Assembly: GCF_903944925.1 (NCBI RefSeq)
Contig: NZ_CAJATU010000042.1
Span: 1 to 64,000, forward strand
DNA length: 64,000 nucleotides
Reading direction: 5' to 3'
Source of the DNA: an uncultured Rhodopila sp.
GTDB lineage: Bacteria; Pseudomonadota; Alphaproteobacteria; Acetobacterales; Acetobacteraceae
The notes under the pieces were generated by a model, which did not search any database, was not told where the DNA came from, and saw nothing but the letters and a program-made list of their open reading frames with translations. Position numbers and translations under genes: made by a program. This document shows, piece by piece, positions 11,659 to 19,295 of the stretch. Each line of letters begins with the position of its first letter. Positions within the stretch are counted from its first letter, which is position 1.

Positions 11659-11707
11659 TTGGCGGACCCGACACGATTCGAACGTGCGACCTTCGCCTTC
11701 GGAGGGC
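11659..11707. repeat. left attachment-site repeat (copy of tRNA-Arg 3' half)
   Basis: 49 bp identical to 19218-19266, covering the tRNA-Arg(CCG) gene from its CCA end back to the anticodon stem-loop. With one mismatch the match extends to 11650. Beyond 11707 the sequence departs from the tRNA, so this copy is only a fragment. It marks the far end of the integrated element. Confidence 0.9.
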
Positions 11708-11823
11708 TATTTTAGGGGTTTGAGGCGGTTTGAGCGGATTTGATCGAAGCGTTTAAACGCATGATAACATGGCGGTTTCCGCTTGATCGGTGTTGATGTG
11801 AATTGACGCCATTTGCCCCGCGG

Positions 11824-11860
11824 TGTTACCCCGGTGTTACCCCGGCGATCGGGGTAACAG
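11824..11860. repeat. tandem/inverted TGTTACCCC repeats at left end of element
   Basis: Two head-to-tail GGTGTTACCCC units followed by an inverted copy GGGGTAACA. The second unit and the inverted one form a 9-bp stem (TGTTACCCC/GGGGTAACA) with a 7-base loop. The structure sits 16 bp upstream of the integrase ATG. A 23-bp stretch (11824-11846) recurs exactly at 19152-19174 near the other end. The arrangement is what integrase arm-type or excisionase sites look like; binding is inferred. Confidence 0.65.
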
Positions 11861-11875
11861 ACAGCGGGTGTTGGC

Positions 11876-13267
11876 ATGGCATCGGACAACCAGGCGAAGG
11901 CGCGGAAGATCGGATTGGCGCAAGTCCGCGACCTTGAACCGAACTCTGAGATATTCGACGGCGGGCCGGGTTCCGTCGCCGGTTTCGGTGCGCGTCGCCG
12001 GGCCGGTAGCGTCGTCTCTTACTTCTGCATGTATCGCACTGCGGAAGGGCGGCTGCGGCGCTTCACCATAGGCCAGCACGGCGCTTTGACCCCGGACGAA
12101 GCCCGCACCAAGGCGCGGGAAGTGCTGGCATCGGTGAAGGTCAAGGGCGCGGACCCGGCGGCGGAGAAGCGGACCCGGCGGGAAGCCGCGACCGTGGCGG
12201 AACTCTGCGAAGCCTACCTTGCCGATGCCGAAGCCGGGCGGGTGCTGACCCGGAACGGCGCGGCGAAGAAGGCAAGCACTCTCCTGAGCGACAAAGGCCG
12301 GATCGATCACATCAAAGCCCTTATCGGCTCGTTGAAGGTTGCAGCGGTCACACCGCGCGACGTGGAAGCCATGATGCACGCCATTGCCGAGGGTAGGACG
12401 GCGGCACGGAAGGCGACGGGCCGGAAGCGCGGGCTGTCCAACCGGCGCGGCGGGGCTGGCGTGGCAAGGCGGACAATCGGGTTGTTGGGCGGGATATTCG
12501 CCTATGCGGTCAAGCACCATATGCGAGCCGACAACCCGGCGCATGGTGTGCAGCGGACGGCGGACGGCCGACGCGAGCGCCGCCTGTCCGATCCCGAATA
12601 TGCCGGGCTTGGCGACGCGCTACGGCTGGCGACAGCGGCGGACGTATGGCCTTCCGCCGTAGCTGCCACGCGGTTCCTTGCCGTGACCGGCTGGCGGGCT
12701 GGCGAAGCCCTTGCGCTGCGTTGGGCAGAGGTTGACCTACCCCGGCGGACGGCAACGCTGACCGACACCAAATCGGGCCGGTCCATCCGCCCCCTGAGCA
12801 ACGCCGCTTGTGACGTGCTGCGGAGCCTGCCGCGCTCCGGCGATCTGGTGTTTGCCGCGACGCGCGGCCAAGGCGAAATGAGCGGCTTCCGGAGCCTATT
12901 CGACCGTATCGGAGCGATGGGCGGGCTTCCTGTCGCGGAACGCAAGATGTCGCCGGTTCCGAGTGGCGTTAAGGCCAAAGCCACGAAGCGCAGCAAGGTG
13001 ATAACGAAGCCGGTTGCCGATGCTGATCTGATTACCCCTCATGTGCTGCGGCATTCGTTCGCGTCGCTTGCTGGCGATCTTGGATATTCCGAAGCTACGA
13101 TTGGAAGCCTTATCGGTCACAAAGGCCAGAGCGTTACAAGCCGATACATCCATTCCGCCGATGCGGTATTGCTTGCCGCTGCTGACAAGGTAGCGGATGA
13201 AACGCTGTCACGCATGGGCGAAGCTATGAAGGGTGCGGAAGTCATACAAATGCCGCGCCGGGCTTGA
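11876..13267 (+). CDS. tyrosine-type site-specific integrase
   Basis: Catalyses integration of the surrounding element at tRNA-Arg. 463 residues, with an N-terminal DUF4102-like arm-binding part (about 1-95), a core-binding SAM-like domain (about 105-215) and a C-terminal catalytic domain. All catalytic residues are visible: Arg274 (TGWRAGEAL), a Lys in the TDTKSGR beta-hairpin, His389 and Arg392 (HVLRHS), His415 (IGHKG) and the nucleophile Tyr424 (SRYIH). The family (P4-like, large integrases) commonly targets tRNA 3' ends, which fits the flanking repeats. The start ATG lies directly after the TGTTACCCC hairpin, so integrase binding there could repress its own gene. Confidence 0.96.
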   Translation: MASDNQAKARKIGLAQVRDLEPNSEIFDGGPGSVAGFGARRRAGSVVSYFCMYRTAEGRLRRFTIGQHGALTPDEARTKAREVLASVKVKGADPAAEKRTRREAATVAELCEAYLADAEAGRVLTRNGAAKKASTLLSDKGRIDHIKALIGSLKVAAVTPRDVEAMMHAIAEGRTAARKATGRKRGLSNRRGGAGVARRTIGLLGGIFAYAVKHHMRADNPAHGVQRTADGRRERRLSDPEYAGLGDALRLATAADVWPSAVAATRFLAVTGWRAGEALALRWAEVDLPRRTATLTDTKSGRSIRPLSNAACDVLRSLPRSGDLVFAATRGQGEMSGFRSLFDRIGAMGGLPVAERKMSPVPSGVKAKATKRSKVITKPVADADLITPHVLRHSFASLAGDLGYSEATIGSLIGHKGQSVTSRYIHSADAVLLAAADKVADETLSRMGEAMKGAEVIQMPRRA

Positions 13268-13346
13268 ACAGAAAATCTGTTTTTGCAACGAACTGCGGAA
13301 AGTGCCATACTCCAACTGTAACCACTTACACATTGGAGTATGCACT

Positions 13347-13574
13347 ATGGACCTAACGAACGCTTGTCATGGGATATCCGCTTTCCTGCAAGCAATGGAG
13401 CCGACTGCAACGCCTGAGCAGTTCCGCGAAATGCTAAACCGCTTGGTAAGCATTCGTGCAACTGATCTATCAGAGTTAAACCTTAAGGCAAAAGTGCTCG
13501 AAGGGCTAGATTACGCTAATGATGATTTGGCGAAATCAATTTGTACTGACATCATCACAATGCAGTCTGAATAA
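13347..13574 (+). CDS. small hypothetical protein of the element (75 aa)
   Basis: Begins at the ATG at 13347, preceded by TTGGAG at good spacing; the longer upstream extension overlaps the integrase end and lacks coding character. The sequence (MDLTNACHGISAFLQAMEPTATPEQFREMLNRLVSI) is acidic and helical, without transmembrane segments. Its AT content is higher than that of the flanking chromosome, consistent with transferred DNA. No family recognised. Its position between integrase and the AlpA-like regulator would suit a control or anti-immunity protein, but that is only positional. Confidence 0.6.
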   Translation: MDLTNACHGISAFLQAMEPTATPEQFREMLNRLVSIRATDLSELNLKAKVLEGLDYANDDLAKSICTDIITMQSE

Positions 13575-13620
13575 CGCTGAAGTGTTCACGCTTTTGTGTC
13601 AGCTTTGACTTAGATTGCAT

Positions 13621-13649
13621 TTGACAAACGCCCCGGCTTGGTCTATTGA
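13621..13649 (+). promoter_or_regulatory. sigma70-like promoter upstream of the AlpA-like gene
   Basis: TTGACA (13621-13626) is a perfect -35 consensus. A 17-bp spacer follows, then TATTGA (13644-13649), a near-consensus -10. Transcription would start near 13656 and run through a hairpin at 13683-13704 towards the gene at 13801. The spacing is optimal, but activity is inferred. Confidence 0.6.
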
Positions 13650-13682
13650 TTTCAATATGCTGGCGAAAGCCGCGCGACAAAC

Positions 13683-13704
13683 GGAAGGCGCTTCGGTGCC
13701 TTCC
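13683..13704 (+). terminator. GGAAGGC hairpin in the leader of the AlpA-like gene
   Basis: GGAAGGC pairs with GCCTTCC around an 8-base loop containing TTCG, and a pyrimidine run (TCGTCTTCTC) follows. A small GGC-GAAA-GCC hairpin lies just before it (about 13661-13671). Together with the promoter at 13621 this could end a ~50-nt transcript (small RNA) or act as an attenuator for the downstream operon. Confidence 0.45.
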
Positions 13705-13800
13705 TCGTCTTCTCAATGATATCAAGCATTTCCGACGCCAACGGCAGTCTCGCCGATTGGCGTTTATGCTGTTTACACGCCTTCAAGAAAGGATAACGTT

Positions 13801-14088
13801 ATGTCACTCGAAACAATAGATCGCAGTGCGCTCTTTCTTCGCGACGAAGCGCCCGCGTTCCTTAAGAAGCACGGTTTCCAGACTACGGTTTCCACGCTGG
13901 CGACGCTCGCAACGCGGGGCGGCGGGCCGGTCTATCGGAAGTTCGGCAACCGGCCCGTTTACACGGCTGGTGATCTGCTGGATTGGGCGCATTCGCGGCT
14001 GTCGGAGCCGTGCCGGAGCACTTCCGAGGATGCCGCCCGGCGGACCGCCAAGCAGCGGGCCGCAACCGAATACTGCGCCGCAGCATGA
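13801..14088 (+). CDS. AlpA/excisionase-like helix-turn-helix protein
   Basis: 95 residues with AAGGA upstream of the ATG. The core (FLKKHGFQTTVSTLATLATRGGGPVYRKFGNRPVYTAGDLLDWA) matches the winged-helix pattern of AlpA and excisionase proteins: a helix-turn-helix, then GGGPxYRKxGxRPVY and a DLLDWA recognition helix. In islands and phage satellites such proteins control integrase expression or direct excision, so this is the likely excisionase or operon regulator. The tail is charged and disordered. It is preceded by a strong promoter and hairpin. Confidence 0.75.
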   Translation: MSLETIDRSALFLRDEAPAFLKKHGFQTTVSTLATLATRGGGPVYRKFGNRPVYTAGDLLDWAHSRLSEPCRSTSEDAARRTAKQRAATEYCAAA

Positions 14089-14229
14089 CGCGCGGACCCG
14101 CCGCCAGGGAGGAAACTGGCGACGGGCAGGAACGGAACAACACAACGAGGACGTGCGGCCTGTATTGCATACCCACGCCTTCGCGTCAACTGAAAATTGC
14201 TTTGCCGAACAAAGAAAAAGAACAAAAAA

Positions 14230-14388
14230 ATGGCATACTTCGATTGGCTCAAAAAAGAGATTACTTGGCAAGAGGAATGGGCGCGCATCCAAGAGGCTCG
14301 CGACAGGATTGCCAAAGGCCGATGCTCGGAAATCGTGAAGCAACTGATTGCGGAGCAAAAGGCGGAATGGGCACATGCCGGAGCATGA
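14230..14388 (+). CDS. small charged helical protein (52 aa)
   Basis: Starts MAYFDWLKKEITWQEEWARIQEAR at the ATG at 14230, following an A-rich stretch rather than a strong ribosome site. Rich in Lys, Glu, Arg and Trp; predicted as one or two amphipathic helices. Its end overlaps the start of the RepA-like ATPase gene by 14 bp, implying translational coupling. No family recognised. It could be an accessory replication protein, but only position supports that. Confidence 0.5.
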   Translation: MAYFDWLKKEITWQEEWARIQEARDRIAKGRCSEIVKQLIAEQKAEWAHAGA

Positions 14389-15859
14389 GTGCTTACAGAT
14401 AGGCGGATACTTCCTGGCACCGGGCACCCCGCCCGATGTGCTGGAAATCGTTCGCGAACAAGTGCGGCGGGAAAAGGACATCCGCGCCATCCGGGCCGGA
14501 CGGCAGCGCATCGCCGATGGCGTGGCTTCCGTAGCCCTACAGGACGTTGCCGAGGATGAACCGAGCAACGACCCGCCGGAGCCGTTGCCGCCGCTAGAGG
14601 TAGCCCCGGAGCCTCGCGTCGAGCCGCACGAATGGCGCGGCAAGCTGATGAACAAACTGCTTCCGGACGGATATCGAACAATGCGCGAACGTGCGGAACA
14701 TCCACAACGGCAACAGATGCACGAACCGGAGGTTAGGGCGCGTGTAAACGGCTTACGTCCGGAGCCGAAGCAATCGCTACCCGATCCGGTGCTGGCACGC
14801 GATATGCGGCCCCGCCTGTCTGCTGGCGGCAGTCTCGTTAAGGGGCTACTCGATGAAGGTGCTATGAGCGTTATCTATGCACCGTCCAACGTCGGCAAAT
14901 CGTTCCTCATGCTTGATCTTGCCTTTCACATCGCGACGGGCAGGGATTGGCGCGGCTTACGGATCAAGAAACCGGGCGCAGTCCTCTATATCGCTGCCGA
15001 GGGCGGATACGGCTTCATCAACCGGGTTATCGCGGTCAAGCGCCATTACGGATTGCCGGACGATGCAGACATACCGTTAGCCGTCTTGCCGTGTCCGGTT
15101 GATCTGCTTGACGCAAAGGCAGACCGCGACGCAATCGTTAGAATGATTGATGACGTTACCTTGGAGTTTGAACAGCCGGTAGTTCTTTTGGTTCTGGATA
15201 CCCTATCGCGGCTGATGACAGGCGGAGACGAAAACTCCGCTAAGGACATGACCGCTTTCGTTGCTAATGCCGACTACATCCGCCAAAACGGGTGCGTTCA
15301 TACCGCGATCGTCCACCATGCCGGTAAGGATATCGCCAAGGGTGCCCGTGGTCACAGTTCGCTACGGGCAGCGACGGATACCGAGATAGAGCTAGTCCGC
15401 GCCGGAGAGGGTATGGATAAGACATTCTCGGTTACTGTAAAAAAGCAGCGCGAACTATCAGGCGATGAAGTATTTATGTGCAATCTAAAGAGTGTCCTTA
15501 TCGGGACGGATGAAGATGGCGACGCTGTGACTTCGGCAGTTGTTGAGCATAGCGCGGCAGAAGGTCCGAGAAGGGTTAGCACTGACGCCAAAATCAGGCA
15601 TAACGTCAATAATAAGGCGTTAGATATCCTTGCCGGTCTGATTGCAACGCAGGGGCACCCATTGCCTGCCAGCGAAGGTTATCCCGCCGGGGTCTCCGGC
15701 GTCACAGAGGAAGTATGGCGGCGGGAATGCGACGCACAACGCTTATCGAAGGCCGAGGCTGACACAAGCCGAGATAGAGTATTCCGCCGGGCGTTCGATC
15801 AACTACACTTTAAGGCGGCTATTGGCACCCGTGACGGTCTGGTGTGGTTAGCCACATAA
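14375..15859 (+). CDS. RepA-family AAA ATPase (replicative helicase-like)
   Basis: 494 residues from the ATG at 14375. The N-terminal ~135 residues are charged and proline-rich with no known fold. The ATPase core (about 150-370) has Walker A YAPSNVGKSFLML with Lys175, Walker B LLVLDTLSRLM with Asp275, and a sensor-like VHHAGKDIAKGARGHSSLRAATD, the signature of RSF1010 RepA/AAA_25 hexameric helicases. The C-terminal ~100 residues may be a winged helix. Such proteins unwind DNA at origins of plasmids, islands and satellites. A GGACA/TGTCC repeat cluster begins 17 bp after the stop, fitting an origin beside its initiator. It overlaps the preceding small gene. Confidence 0.85.
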   Translation: MPEHECLQIGGYFLAPGTPPDVLEIVREQVRREKDIRAIRAGRQRIADGVASVALQDVAEDEPSNDPPEPLPPLEVAPEPRVEPHEWRGKLMNKLLPDGYRTMRERAEHPQRQQMHEPEVRARVNGLRPEPKQSLPDPVLARDMRPRLSAGGSLVKGLLDEGAMSVIYAPSNVGKSFLMLDLAFHIATGRDWRGLRIKKPGAVLYIAAEGGYGFINRVIAVKRHYGLPDDADIPLAVLPCPVDLLDAKADRDAIVRMIDDVTLEFEQPVVLLVLDTLSRLMTGGDENSAKDMTAFVANADYIRQNGCVHTAIVHHAGKDIAKGARGHSSLRAATDTEIELVRAGEGMDKTFSVTVKKQRELSGDEVFMCNLKSVLIGTDEDGDAVTSAVVEHSAAEGPRRVSTDAKIRHNVNNKALDILAGLIATQGHPLPASEGYPAGVSGVTEEVWRRECDAQRLSKAEADTSRDRVFRRAFDQLHFKAAIGTRDGLVWLAT

Positions 15860-15875
15860 GGCTTATTCATGACGT

Positions 15876-15999
15876 GGACAAAACGGTCGGACAAGTCCGA
15901 TTTCGGACAAATCGGCTGTCCGTTTTCGGACGGACAGGACATCCCCCTTTAGGGGGTGTCCGCTGTCCGGACAGACCCGAAGTCCGGACAGGCTGTCCG
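15876..15999. repeat. GGACA/TGTCC repeat cluster, candidate replication origin
   Basis: About eleven copies of GGACA or its complement TGTCC lie in ~125 bp, many as CGGACA/TGTCCG, including the palindrome CTGTCCGGACAG at 15963-15974. A strong hairpin in the middle pairs GGACATCCCCC with GGGGGTGTCC around TTTA (about 15936-15960). It lies immediately downstream of the RepA-like gene and codes for nothing obvious. Iteron-like direct and inverted repeats next to a helicase gene are typical of origins; function is inferred. Confidence 0.6.
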
Positions 16000-16096
16000 A
16001 TCAACCCGGCAGGCATCCCGCCCGCCGGTTCATCAATTCCCCAAGCGTATGCCGCGCGCTTGATCCGGGTTTCCAGCGGCTTGGAAAAAACTGACA

Positions 16097-16675
16097 GTGA
16101 CTACTAAATACGACTACAGCGTTCATATCGATCAGAGTATCATCGCTGCGGAAGATCAGAAGCTAGCGGCTATTACCGGCCGCCGGTTGGTAGCGCAAAA
16201 GCGCCATGCCGATGCGATAGACGCTCATTCTGCGGCTACCGCTGCTCACAGGGCCGCGCTGCAAGGCGAAGGCGGCGACCCCTTCGATACCGCTGCCGAA
16301 TTGAAGGCCGCTGCGGAGCGTGTCAGCACGGCATCGGAAGCAGCAACGGCTACCGAGCAAGTGATTGCTAATGCTCATTTTAATCATGAGCACGCTTGCG
16401 GTAAGGCTTACGAGCCGATGCACCGTGTAGCGTTATCTCATCTGATTGAAGCCGCAACGAAAGCGGATCAGGCAAGGGCGCTGATGGCCGAAGCGCAAGC
16501 GATGTGGACGGCCGCTGCGGCTGCTTCGCAAACCTGCGTCATGCATCGCAGCGGCATTTTTCTGCACCCCGCCTTGTTCGCCCCGCATAGCGAACTCGCT
16601 CCGGTTGAAGGCCACTTTCACATCCCTAGTGCATCGGAAGTGACCCCACGGGTTAAGCACTCGGGGGTTAACTAA
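16097..16675 (+). CDS. hypothetical alanine-rich helical protein of the element
   Basis: 192 residues from a GTG start (GTGACTACT) at 16097. Rich in Ala, Glu and His, with long helices (HADAIDAHSAATAAHRAAL, AAELKAAAERVSTASEAATATEQVIANAHFNH) predicted to form a coiled coil over residues ~30-150. The C-terminal part has several His and Pro residues. There is no signal peptide. It is the first gene after the candidate origin and abuts the next gene without a gap, so it likely heads the small-gene operon running to 17866. No known family. Confidence 0.6.
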   Translation: MTTKYDYSVHIDQSIIAAEDQKLAAITGRRLVAQKRHADAIDAHSAATAAHRAALQGEGGDPFDTAAELKAAAERVSTASEAATATEQVIANAHFNHEHACGKAYEPMHRVALSHLIEAATKADQARALMAEAQAMWTAAAAASQTCVMHRSGIFLHPALFAPHSELAPVEGHFHIPSASEVTPRVKHSGVN

Positions 16676-16882
16676 ATGGCAACGATTACCAGATCAGAGT
16701 TCCTTGCTTTGTCGGAACGTGAGAAGCGTATCTTTCTCCGTTCTGGAACCGTAACCGTTGATCCCCCCCGCGAGCCGGCCAGGATCGAGTTGCCAGAGGG
16801 TGCTTTGACCCGCGCCGATTGGATGAAGCTTTCGCCCGATGCCCGGCGGGATCACGTCAAATCGGGCAAGGGCGTGTTCTGA
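16676..16882 (+). CDS. small hypothetical protein of the element (68 aa)
   Basis: The ATG directly follows the stop of the preceding gene, with a GGGGG tract upstream. The sequence (ITRSEFLALSEREKRIFLRSGTVTVDPP, then LTRADWMKLSPDARRDHVKSGKGVF) has two copies of a pattern in which a short helix beginning with a Ser/Thr-Arg cap is followed by a basic SG turn. This suggests a duplicated small helical unit (residues 5-25 and 44-65). Its stop TGA overlaps the next ATG (TGATG). Function is unknown. Confidence 0.6.
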   Translation: MATITRSEFLALSEREKRIFLRSGTVTVDPPREPARIELPEGALTRADWMKLSPDARRDHVKSGKGVF

Positions 16883-17217
16883 TGCGCAAGCCAGCAAACC
16901 CGGCCGTTGAACTCGATTACAAAATGATGGTGGCGATCGAACGGTGCTGGCTTGCCAACTTGGCGACGGTGCGGGCTACTGCCGCTTCGCCGGAGTTGCA
17001 GCGTGCCTGTCAGCAACGGCATAGGGCTGCGCTTGAACGGGGGTTTCTGATGGCGGGGGCTGTTCGGCGCCCAGTTGCTCCGGAGCCGCCTAGGCCAAGC
17101 GGGAAGCCCGGCAAATGGCATCCGCCGAAGGATGTCACGCCGGGATCGAAAAAACACCGGCTGCGGCAGTTCGCTGCGATGTCTCAGGCCGAGCAAGACG
17201 CGCGGTTGTATGCCTGA
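16882..17217 (+). CDS. hypothetical basic protein of the element (111 aa)
   Basis: Begins at the ATG at 16882, sharing a base with the previous stop (TGATG), which argues for this start. N-terminal half helical (VELDYKMMVAIERCWLANLATVRATAAS); C-terminal half basic and proline/glycine-rich (RPSGKPGKWHPPKDVTPGSKKHRLRQF), suggestive of nucleic-acid contact. The end overlaps the next gene by 8 bp. No recognised family. Confidence 0.6.
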   Translation: MRKPANPAVELDYKMMVAIERCWLANLATVRATAASPELQRACQQRHRAALERGFLMAGAVRRPVAPEPPRPSGKPGKWHPPKDVTPGSKKHRLRQFAAMSQAEQDARLYA

Positions 17218-17368
17218 TATCGATCTAGCAACGGAAGGTGAGGGTGGCGATCTGCCACCCCTGCCTACCATGGCCGAGTTGCAACAGGCGTCGGATGCTG
17301 CCTTGCAACGAATTTCCGAGACGCTGGCAAAGGCGCAATCCAGATCAGGACGGAACAAGAAAACATGA
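17210..17368 (+). CDS. small acidic hypothetical protein (52 aa)
   Basis: Starts MPDIDLATEGEGGDLPPLPT at the ATG at 17210, 8 bp before the end of the preceding gene, and its stop overlaps the next start (ATGA). A disordered acidic N-terminus is followed by one helix (MAELQQASDAALQRISETLAKAQSR) and a basic tail. The coupling on both sides is the main support that it is real. Function is unknown. Confidence 0.5.
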   Translation: MPDIDLATEGEGGDLPPLPTMAELQQASDAALQRISETLAKAQSRSGRNKKT

Positions 17369-17613
17369 GTGTAGATCGGGCCAAATACGAAGCACGCGAG
17401 CGTAAAGCCTTGCAGCGGTCAATGCAGCGGTGCGGCGTGCTGGCCGGGTTCAGTCCGGTGATTGCCGGTCTCATGGCGCGAGATTTAATCAAGAATTGGA
17501 AAATGGACAGAAATGGAACAAATCCCAAAAAAGAAAAAGCGGGGCGGCCGAGTTTTGGGCCAAACCAATTTACGGACGCGAGCGTTAGCGGCGCAGCAAC
17601 AAGCAGCGATTAA
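17365..17613 (+). CDS. hypothetical basic protein of the element (82 aa)
   Basis: The ATG at 17365 overlaps the previous stop by 4 bp. The first ~50 residues (DRAKYEARERKALQRSMQRCGVLAGFSPVIAGLMARDLIKNW) look structured, with a short hydrophobic helix. The last ~32 residues are low-complexity and share DNA in another frame with the start of the small-terminase-like gene (17513-17613). Either the genes truly overlap by ~100 bp or this frame once ended earlier. Function is unknown. Confidence 0.45.
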   Translation: MSVDRAKYEARERKALQRSMQRCGVLAGFSPVIAGLMARDLIKNWKMDRNGTNPKKEKAGRPSFGPNQFTDASVSGAATSSD

Positions 17614-17866
17614 GCATCTTGCGGAGCAACTGACACCCGATGCGCTTAAGAGTATGTCGAGTTTGGATGTTCTCCGTATCTGCATGATCCAGGCGTTGCA
17701 GTCTGGCGACCTTGCCAGCGCGCGGGCAGCGGCAAGTGAGCTTGCGCCCTTTGAGTTTGCCCGAAAGAGTGTTGATCCGGCGGCTACCGACATCCCGACC
17801 GATCTCCTGCCGGACCCGGAACCGACGCCCGATGAGGAAGCCCCGGCGAACATCATCCTTGGCTAA
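17513..17866 (+). CDS. small-terminase-like phage protein
   Basis: 117 residues. The N-terminus is lysine-rich with a GRxxGxxNxRTRA pattern (KKKKRGGRVLGQTNLRTRALA). It is followed by LTPDALKSMSSLDVLRICMIQALQSGDLASARAAASELAPFEFARKS. This arrangement, ending in an A...APF/APY..K segment, is common to phage proteins encoded just before large terminases and often called terminase small subunit-like. The acidic Pro-rich tail is disordered. No large terminase gene follows. If the assignment holds, the element may divert a helper phage's packaging machinery. The assignment comes from pattern recall only. Confidence 0.45.
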   Translation: MEQIPKKKKRGGRVLGQTNLRTRALAAQQQAAIKHLAEQLTPDALKSMSSLDVLRICMIQALQSGDLASARAAASELAPFEFARKSVDPAATDIPTDLLPDPEPTPDEEAPANIILG

Positions 17867-17953
17867 CGCTATGCCGCGAAGATTTCTCTTGCACTGCGCT
17901 ACCATCGCTGTATGACTACCCACAACGAATGTAGTGAGTGAGAGAGAAAATCC

Positions 17954-18628
17954 ATGGACGGCCGATTTGTTTCCTATCTCCGGGTTTCGACCGATCGCCA
18001 AGGCAAGTCCGGGCTTGGTATCGATGCGCAAAGGGATGCCGTTACCGCCCATCTGAACGGCGGGGCTTGGACGCTTATTGCTGAATACGTGGAAGTCGAG
18101 AGCGGTAAGAATGATGCCCGGCCGGAACTGGCGAAGGCTCTTGCACGGTGCAAACTGACTGGCGCAACGCTGATTGTCGCCAAACTAGACCGGCTAAGCC
18201 GTAACCAAGCCTTCCTGATGAACGTTTACGAAGGCACTGGCGAAGGTGGCGTAGTGTTCTGCGATCTTCCCACCATTCCGCCCGGCCCGGTGGGCAAGTT
18301 CATCGTTCAACAGATGGCAGCGGTTGCCGAACTCGAACGCGGCCTGATCTCACAGCGCACGAAGGCAGCCTTGGCGGCTTCCAAGAAACAGCTTGGCGGC
18401 TATCGCGGCGGGCCGGTTCCTGACGCTGCTAAAGCCACGGAAGCCCGCCAGGAAGCCGCCGACGCCTTCGCCGCTGATGTTGGACCGATGGCAGCGGAGT
18501 TGCGCGCGGCGGGCCGGAGCCTTCGCCAGATCGCGGCGGAACTGACTGAGCAAGGCGTCCGGACGCCACGCGGCGGGGCTTGGTCTGCCGATGCCGTGCG
18601 GCGGTTGTTGGAACGCCACGCGGCTTAG
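17954..18628 (+). CDS. serine recombinase (resolvase/invertase family)
   Basis: 224 residues. N-terminal resolvase domain with the nucleophile Ser12 in YLRVSTDRQGKSGLGIDAQ, then VAKLDRLSRNQAFLMN, and the long E helix KFIVQQMAAVAELERGLISQRTKAAL. The C-terminus has a recombinase-type HTH (LRAAGRSLRQIAAELTEQGVRTPRGGAWSADAVRRLL). GAGAGA-like purines precede the ATG. It is unusual beside a tyrosine integrase; it may resolve multimers of the replicating element or invert a segment. No inverted repeat pair suggesting an invertible region was seen. Confidence 0.92.
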   Translation: MDGRFVSYLRVSTDRQGKSGLGIDAQRDAVTAHLNGGAWTLIAEYVEVESGKNDARPELAKALARCKLTGATLIVAKLDRLSRNQAFLMNVYEGTGEGGVVFCDLPTIPPGPVGKFIVQQMAAVAELERGLISQRTKAALAASKKQLGGYRGGPVPDAAKATEARQEAADAFAADVGPMAAELRAAGRSLRQIAAELTEQGVRTPRGGAWSADAVRRLLERHAA

Positions 18629-18646
18629 CGCCGCACCCCTCTATCG

Positions 18647-18976
18647 CTACGGGATATCGCCAACCTTATCGAATGCTACCTTTACCGAGTTGCCGCCTAC
18701 GCTGATCGTCTGCCATTGACCGTTGTCAAAGGACGGAGGCAACAAAAATGATATCGGAACTTCCGTTCCCGGCGGAACCTGCTTTCCGGTCACAAGCTTC
18801 GCACCGGCCGAAGTCAGGGTAACGTTGCCAGACAGTGAAGTCCCTTTGGCGACGTAAATCCCGGCGTAGCGTGCTCCGGTGATGTCAACGCCAACTATCT
18901 TCCCTTTGCCGATATAAACCGCCCCGTGACCTTCCCCGGCCACACCTTGGTAACGCATTTGGTAAAGCGCGCTCAC
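18647..18976 (-). CDS. GrlR-like small protein at the right end of the element
   Basis: 109 residues, convergent with the serine recombinase (18 bp between stops). Alternating beta-strand pattern with many glycines: ALYQMRYQGVAGEGHGAVYIGKGKIVGVDITGARYAGIY, GNVTLTSAG, then a closing VKVAFDKVGDIP. This resembles the GrlR lipocalin-like fold family, in which a beta-barrel carries a G-x-V..G..V..D..Y.G motif. GrlR itself represses type III secretion regulators in enteric pathogens; homologues elsewhere are uncharacterised. Here it is the only element gene on the minus strand, so it may be cargo. The assignment is tentative. Confidence 0.5.
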   Translation of the reverse strand: MSALYQMRYQGVAGEGHGAVYIGKGKIVGVDITGARYAGIYVAKGTSLSGNVTLTSAGAKLVTGKQVPPGTEVPISFLLPPSFDNGQWQTISVGGNSVKVAFDKVGDIP

Positions 18977-19151
18977 AACCAGCCCTCACAGTTGCAGAGC
19001 GCCACTATTATCGTATCCGTTCCGAGTCGCGCTAGCGCAATGCCGACGCGCACTTAATCCCCGGCTTAACCGCTACATGCCAAATCAGGCGTGGCAATCG
19101 TGCGGAGGCGTGGCACGGCAACCCGGCGGACGGGCTTCAAGCCCCGGATGC

Positions 19152-19174
19152 TGTTACCCCGGTGTTACCCCGGC
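19152..19174. repeat. right-end copy of the TGTTACCCC tandem repeat
   Basis: 23 bp identical to 11824-11846: two TGTTACCCC units in direct orientation, 44 bp inside the right attachment repeat. The preceding C makes CTGTTACCCC, the exact inverse of the unit at 11851-11860. Sharing between the two ends of one element supports a role in integrase or excisionase binding. Confidence 0.65.
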
Positions 19175-19217
19175 CATTTTCCGGGTTCGACCAAAGCGCC
19201 GTAACTGCTTGAAAAGA

Positions 19218-19266
19218 TTGGCGGACCCGACACGATTCGAACGTGCGACCTTCGCCTTCGGAGGGC
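19218..19266. repeat. right attachment-site repeat within tRNA-Arg
   Basis: 49 bp identical to 11659-11707, here forming part of the intact tRNA-Arg gene from the CCA end to the anticodon arm. Integration at this point leaves a working tRNA. The crossover must fall inside the repeat, probably in the anticodon loop or T-arm as for other tRNA-targeting integrases. Confidence 0.9.
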
Positions 19267-19295
19267 GACGCTCTATCCAGCTGAGCTACGGGTCC
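19219..19295 (-). tRNA. tRNA-Arg (anticodon CCG)
   Basis: 77 nt on the minus strand beginning GGACCCGTAGCTCAGC and ending in an encoded CCA. Acceptor GGACCCG pairs with CGGGTCC. The D-arm has the usual AGCTCAGCTGGATAGAGC. The anticodon stem TCGCC/GGCGA encloses loop CTCCGAA, giving anticodon CCG (reads CGG, arginine). The T-loop is GTTCGAATC. It serves as the integration site of the element to its left. Confidence 0.95.

Follow-up and report, generated by a model that had tools for sequence, protein, structure and literature searches.

A compact tRNA-Arg element resembling a phage satellite, with a putative RepA-iteron replicon and two recombinases

Satellites of the P4 type carry the alpha protein together with the P4 set (psu, delta and sid). 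For the phage-inducible chromosomal islands (PICIs) of Gram-negative bacteria, the published account describes a plan of integrase gene (int), regulator, rep, an origin just 3' of rep and, sometimes, terS (PMC6092414). According to the same text, the origin directly follows rep on its 3' side, and an AT-rich stretch lies there between two sets of iterons (PMC6092414). PICIs are further marked by att sites that are not known to serve prophages, and by induction and packaging that depend on a phage. Here we describe a 7.6 kb element in the genome of an uncultured Rhodopila sp. The element occupies positions 11,659 to 19,266 of contig NZ_CAJATU010000042.1, within a 64,000 nt stretch (positions 1 to 64,000, hereafter the window). 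On balance, we read the element as a probable PICI-like phage satellite whose replicon is of the RepA-iteron kind; it is not a proven PICI.

An integrated element at tRNA-Arg

The element is bounded by exact 49 bp repeats, and the match between the two ends extends to 58 nt at 98% identity. The right repeat is the 3' part of tRNA-Arg(CCG). This is the sole tRNA detected by ARAGORN in the window, which excludes a second tRNA gene at the left repeat. A 45 nt core of the repeat occurs twice in the whole 7.0 Mb genome. The bounded tRNA-Arg element proposed in an initial annotation of the window is thereby borne out. That annotation also considered that the repeats might be remnants of tRNA paralogues. 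With one tRNA in the window, and two copies of the core in this genome, this origin of the left repeat was rejected. The GC content is 59.0% within the element, compared with 64.6% on both flanks. The main features are as follows.

11659..11707, no strand: exact 49 bp attachment (att) repeat, copy distal to the tRNA
11824..11845, + strand: TGTTACCCCGG twice in tandem, putative integrase arm-type sites
11850: inverted CGGGGTAAC, beside the left TGTTACCCCGG pair
11876..13267, + strand: tyrosine integrase, 463 aa (PF00589 5.6e-15; PF13356, Arm-DNA-bind_3, 1.8e-9; phrog_1 1.6e-48)
13801..14088, + strand: 95 aa winged-helix protein, RdfS-like excisionase or regulator ('AlpA-like')
14375..15859, + strand: RepA-type AAA_25 replicative helicase, 494 aa (PF13481 1.3e-35; phage RepA relatives)
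15886..16000, no strand: CGGACA/TGTCCG iteron cluster, putative origin
15937..15961, no strand: GC-armed hairpin between the iterons (DNA fold of a 40 nt stretch, -14.8)
17513..17866, + strand: TerS-like (small-terminase-family) gene, 117 aa (helical single-sequence model; predicted local distance difference test score, pLDDT, 67.7)
17914..17943, no strand: palindrome 10 bp ahead of the serine recombinase gene, a candidate operator or crossover site (score 16.4)
17954..18628, + strand: serine recombinase of resolvase/invertase type, 224 aa (PF00239 2.7e-28; phrog_125, DNA invertase, 3.3e-33)
19152..19173, + strand: TGTTACCCCGG twice in tandem at the other element end, putative integrase arm-type sites
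19218..19266, no strand: exact 49 bp att repeat, copy at the tRNA
19219..19295, - strand: intact tRNA-Arg(CCG) gene of the host, with the repeat as its 3' part (ARAGORN)

All genes from int to the serine recombinase point rightward. The open reading frames (ORFs) are open and compactly spaced, and those of a train of small genes overlap. The tyrosine integrase, serine recombinase and RepA-like helicase named in the initial annotation were recovered as PF00589, PF00239 and AAA_25 matches. Its statement that structural phage genes are missing also stands; no structural or lytic gene was matched, at or near cut-off, among the element proteins scanned against Pfam, PHROGs and NCBIfam (not every ORF was run against every library). 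Likewise, P4 alpha, psu, delta and sid had no match among the element proteins scanned. On the + strand of the window, the TGTTACCCCGG motif occurs four times, as one pair near each element end and nowhere else. The pairs fit sites that the arm-binding domain of the integrase might recognise.

The 95 aa protein has no match in Pfam or NCBIfam. In a sequence comparison with the PDB it matches RdfS, a recombination directionality factor (E 4.7e-4). The fold modelled from the single sequence (mean pLDDT 60.7) runs helix-helix-wing-helix. Foldseek placed RdfS top for this low-confidence model, with probability 0.99 but E 0.16, and no hit was as good as E 0.001. In Sinorhizobium medicae (L279) an integrase relative (4.8e-78) and an RdfS-like gene (1.1e-17) are paired likewise. 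Taken together, the RdfS matches and the Sinorhizobium pair place the protein closest to RdfS, so we label it excisionase-like rather than AlpA; a regulator role is presumed. Of the earlier 'AlpA-like regulator' label, the regulator part was retained as presumed and the AlpA family name was not.

In Pfam, RepA matches AAA_25 alone. Against PHROGs, its helicase portion hits families of helicases or helicase-primases. The repeat cluster reported to adjoin RepA is real; it lies directly 3' of repA and its top 7-mer count was matched in 0 of 200 first-order Markov shuffles. Three related elements described below (C191, G182 and G086) have different repeat units 3' of the replicase gene, each also unmatched in 200 shuffles. 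In a wider survey, 52 of 88 stretches (near-duplicates counted) had a top 7-mer count matched in at most 2 of 200 shuffles.

Two further observations concern RepA loci elsewhere. A CTATAG-centred palindrome of at least 10 nt was found in 13 of 76 RepA-downstream stretches, compared with 5 occurrences in the other 1.295 Mb of these loci. The 13 cases lie within 300 bp 3' of RepA (L009, L050, L112, L115, L119-L121, L123, L137, L138 and L141-L143), and 6 of them are related, with an identical 10-mer. The palindrome is likely to be a conserved origin hairpin of RepA replicons. Separately, in a Magnetovibrio metagenome-assembled genome (L136:7986-11191) a related integrase (9.7e-38) is followed by a RepA relative, giving another int-RepA neighbourhood.

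The TerS-like gene and its neighbourhood

The TerS-like protein is 47% identical to a relative in a second element of the same genome (C191) and 34% identical to one in G182. Of 299 genomes of the order searched with a profile built from these three sequences, 24 had a match, counting the element's own genome. Twenty loci were fetched. In 15 of these a TerL gene adjoins the TerS-like match on the same strand; L086, L091, L093 and L094 had no match to seven TerL queries and L102 is cut by a contig end. When the window and C191 proteins were aligned with nine TerL-adjacent phage and prophage proteins, hhalign gave a probability of 97.7% (E 2.3e-12). Several relatives match PHROGs annotated as 'terminase small subunit' (4.2e-6 to 1e-3), the best being phrog_641 (4.2e-6) and phrog_18735 (1.7e-5). 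In Rhodoferax phage P26218 the order is RepA, a hypothetical gene, TerS-like, TerL and portal. Five prophage loci have a further conserved small gene upstream, with no assigned function (phrog_37226 or phrog_16492). The small-terminase identity is thus supported via the relatives, without a direct family match. The element's boundaries, gene families and iterons, and the homology of its TerS-like gene to TerL-adjacent genes, are all legible in the DNA and protein sequences themselves.

The gene also occurs where no TerL was found, namely in C191, G182, G086 and three loci of genus g41 (L091, L093 and L094). To compare these elements, the remaining genes of the window's element are needed.

13347..13574, + strand: 75 aa gene, function not assigned, no family in Pfam or PHROGs
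14230..14388, + strand: 52 aa small gene overlapping repA (phrog_14931, unknown function, 4.2e-5)
16097..16675, + strand: 192 aa small-train gene, 55% identity to the C191 copy
16676..16882, + strand: 68 aa small-train gene, 91% identity to the C191 copy
16882..17217, + strand: 111 aa small-train gene (C191 relative 1.2e-27)
17213..17368, + strand: 51 aa small-train gene (C191 relative 4e-7)
17365..17613, + strand: 82 aa small-train ORF overlapping the TerS-like gene, no family match
18647..18976, - strand: 109 aa ORF, flanked by the serine recombinase and the tRNA, possible cargo, no family match

For the 75 aa gene, the nearest signal is a tail domain far below threshold (E 0.081; 13 bits, cut-off 51.85). 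The C191 element carries relatives of the 192, 68, 111, 51 and 117 aa genes with their order kept. A DUF3987 gene occupies the RepA position, and the resolvase that follows the TerS-like gene is a different one. In both G182 and G086 the replicase gene is of RepA type, and a serine recombinase adjoins the TerS-like gene. These two adjoining genes are 205 bp apart in G182 and are convergent and overlapping in G086, where the contig starts just before RepA. A serine recombinase thus adjoins the TerS-like gene in three other elements without a detected TerL. The three g41 loci combine an integrase with the TerS-like gene; HTH_17 and DUF927 genes were identified by Pfam in L093 and L094, and by eye only in L091. 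Gene starts and greedy ORF choices in unannotated loci were our own.

Two loci with other packaging genes deserve mention. In the same genome, C158 (L154:1194-10533) carries a block of TerL, portal, head and tail sheath genes beside a gene read as tgt. No TerS-like family match precedes this TerL; relatives in other genomes have one there. It is speculation that the C158 TerL block could use the element's TerS-like gene. A PF04466-type TerL is absent from the element's own genome; other TerL families were not searched. In G374 (L211:6837-10052), near tRNA-Ser, a Terminase_2-type TerS (PF03592 2e-16) accompanies a serine recombinase of the same family as that in the window.

The serine recombinase and its palindrome

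Relatives of the serine recombinase at E 1e-42 or better are present in 55 of 397 family genomes. We surveyed 50 loci, comprising 40 of 82 listed places taken by rank and 10 picked by hand; many are cut by contig ends. Loci already collected, two G088 repeat copies, G035, G355 and one of G426 were omitted. A tyrosine integrase lies within 8 kb in 14 of the 50 loci and ParA within 3 kb in 6, in five of which the distance is 51-73 bp. A tRNA lies within 1.5 kb in 7, RepA is present in 4 and the TerS-like gene in 2. For the 40 listed loci alone, the counts are 12 (integrase), 5 (ParA), 3 (RepA), 4 (tRNA) and 0 (TerS-like gene). With 14 integrase neighbours in 50 loci, and a serine recombinase beside the TerS-like gene in three other elements without a detected TerL, the suggested rarity of two recombinases together is not supported.

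Upstream of the serine recombinase and its relatives we identified a palindrome with the core CAACGNNCGTTG. Symmetry was imposed in the search, which ran on the 49 upstream stretches left when near-duplicates were dropped from a set of 52, with start codons chosen by script. The mean score per sequence was 13.1, compared with 6.7-7.3 in six shuffled sets (8 restarts for shuffled sets, 30 for the real set). Scores of at least 12 were obtained for 29 of the 49 relatives, the window included, and 24 of these sites are at most 25 bp from the start codon. The copy at 17914-17943 is the best match across the 64 kb. The next site in the element (18705-18734) scores 12.7, level with the maxima of five shuffles (11.4-14.7). 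At L009 and L155, the TerS-like loci among the 50, the palindrome scores below 12. The conservation of this site, like the recurrent pairing of TerS-like and serine recombinase genes, can be read at the level of sequence.

Serine recombinase genes were also seen at the same tRNA in other genomes. In G391 (L178:6880-8370) the same tRNA-Arg retains the serine recombinase (91.6% DNA identity) and the right end of the element, with the rest missing; this locus is either a remnant or another element. In G386 (L181:1091-1474) a fragment of the serine recombinase adjoins the same tRNA.

Competing readings and comparison with described satellites

From the features above we infer excision, replication, helper dependence, packaging and resolution of the element. 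The tyrosine integrase, with a directionality factor of RdfS/AlpA type, would drive excision from, and insertion into, the tRNA-Arg 3' end. RepA would bind the iterons 3' of its gene and so replicate the circle formed on excision. When a helper infects or is induced, the TerS-like protein would mark element DNA for the helper TerL, leading to its entry into helper capsids. For the serine recombinase, the likeliest role is to resolve multimers at the palindrome that precedes its own gene.

Several results weigh against a PICI-like satellite. Alone, the TerS-like protein of the window has no terminase match in Pfam, PHROGs or NCBIfam, and tblastn gave no hit at all in 50,697 phage records; the best PHROG of the family is phrog_15261, of unknown function. 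In L091 (9539-10289; G040), an integrase element, an Sf6-type TerS (PF20901 1.7e-37, phrog_1482 1.8e-43) adjoins the family member, and L093 (9527-9664) has a fragment of such a gene. Because of these two loci, the family may provide an accessory packaging function rather than TerS itself. The Sf6-type gene was not found in the other loci scanned, including the window and the TerL-adjacent loci. The earlier 'small-terminase-like' call therefore holds through TerL-adjacent relatives, without a direct family match and with this Sf6-type caution. No primase was recognised in the element, none of the 87 RepA loci sampled from collections of viral sequences and genomes had a TerS-like match, and no clean empty site was seen among the genus genomes compared. 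A tape-measure match (phrog_28 1e-7) lies near the G182 genes. The 192 aa gene was present in 1 of 33 genus genomes, its own, and its alignment had no relative in a GTDB 220 scan made with two short patterns only. Among 200 family genomes, the 68 aa gene was strong only in its own, with two weak matches (7.8e-5 and 4.1e-4). Viral-contig scans gave no confirmed relative of the 68 aa gene, the TerS-like alignment or the integrase. Close relatives of the small-gene train were thus found in the element's own genome only. Finally, at 7.6 kb the element is smaller than the about 12-15 kb given for typical PICIs (PMC6092414).

The alternative that survives best, tentative as it is, is an integrative plasmid-like island. 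Here RepA, iterons, integrase and resolvase would form a vertically inherited, occasionally replicating and helper-free unit, with the TerS-like gene a passenger or repurposed. Consistent with this, the serine recombinase family is also found near ParA in plasmid-like settings and RepA relatives occur on plasmids (31 records). Furthermore, L208, L242, L259 and L270 have a tRNA, integrase, RepA and serine recombinase with no TerS-like match. Conversely, two elements of one genome keep the TerS-like gene at 47% identity with the same neighbours, which suggests that it is under selection, and scans of the element proteins brought up neither a relaxase nor a partition gene.

A bolder extension, which we regard as doubtful, is a separate satellite lineage in this bacterial family, with the TerS-like gene, the serine recombinase and the latter's own palindrome acting as a packaging-and-resolution module. 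TerS would load concatemers of the small genome into helper capsids of normal size. After delivery, the serine recombinase would yield single circles for insertion by the tyrosine integrase. If true, this would account for two recombinases, and no capsid-size gene, in 7.6 kb.

It is improbable that the element is what remains of a prophage after the loss of TerL and structural genes, with integrase, RepA and the TerS-like gene surviving the decay. The gene order of P26218 speaks for it, and G182, with RepA, TerS-like and serine recombinase genes, may be a prophage piece because of the tape-measure match further along its contig. Against decay, the ORFs are open and compactly spaced, the ends are exact, no structural remnant was recognised and the second element has the train with other replication and recombinase genes. 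Least credible of all is that the serine recombinase acts as a DNA invertase and flips part of the element; its top PHROG carries the invertase name, but the window has one strong palindromic site, and 11 of 13 hand-picked loci have one site at a score of at least 14 and two have none (the site matrix was trained on the scanned loci and weaker second sites could escape), which argues against inversion and for multimer resolution or an operator.

The PICI-like satellite thus remains our preferred reading. The satellite or self-replicating island first proposed is the best description, and a second element in the genome has the same train; recurrence across the genus was not seen for the 192 aa gene. 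The TerS-like/serine recombinase neighbourhood is the element's most interesting feature. Loci that have a TerS-like gene but no detected TerL recur in one bacterial family, variously with RepA, DUF3987 or DUF927, and four of them have an adjacent serine recombinase. Such loci offer a concrete test of possible packaging and resolution by very small satellites without capsid remodelling. No description of such elements appeared in titles or abstract starts of the best-ranked open-access matches (subscription papers were absent), which is a weak sign of novelty.

The view in the initial annotation that no name could be attached was too strong, as the layout is near the Gram-negative PICI plan (PMC6092414). 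Like PICIs of the EcCICFT073 type, the element has int, a presumed regulator and rep in this order and one direction, iterons of a putative origin just 3' of rep, a terS-like gene and no recognised structural or lytic genes (PMC6092414). The replicase is a RepA AAA_25 helicase rather than Pri-Rep, the regulator is RdfS-like rather than AlpA, the middle of the putative origin is a GC-armed hairpin rather than an AT-rich stretch, and the serine recombinase is extra (PMC6092414). The phage-inducible chromosomal minimalist islands (PICMIs) of Vibrionaceae are likewise small, with an integrase, an AlpA-type protein, a replication gene and no capsid-remodelling genes (PMC10803314). Their search model includes DUF3987, as in the C191 sister element, and accepts a serine or tyrosine recombinase as integrase (PMC10803314). 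Whereas a typical PICMI has a DUF3987/DUF5906 primase and lies by fis, our element has RepA AAA_25 and lies at tRNA-Arg; it also differs in having a TerS-like gene and two recombinases together (PMC10803314). The terS module of Staphylococcus aureus pathogenicity islands is similar in that a satellite-borne TerS directs helper packaging, as the TerS-like protein may do here; unlike those islands, the element has no recognised master repressor or capsid-remodelling gene (PMC6092414). RepA phages, such as Rhodoferax phage P26218, share RepA followed by a TerS-like relative but have TerL, portal and a full phage genome.

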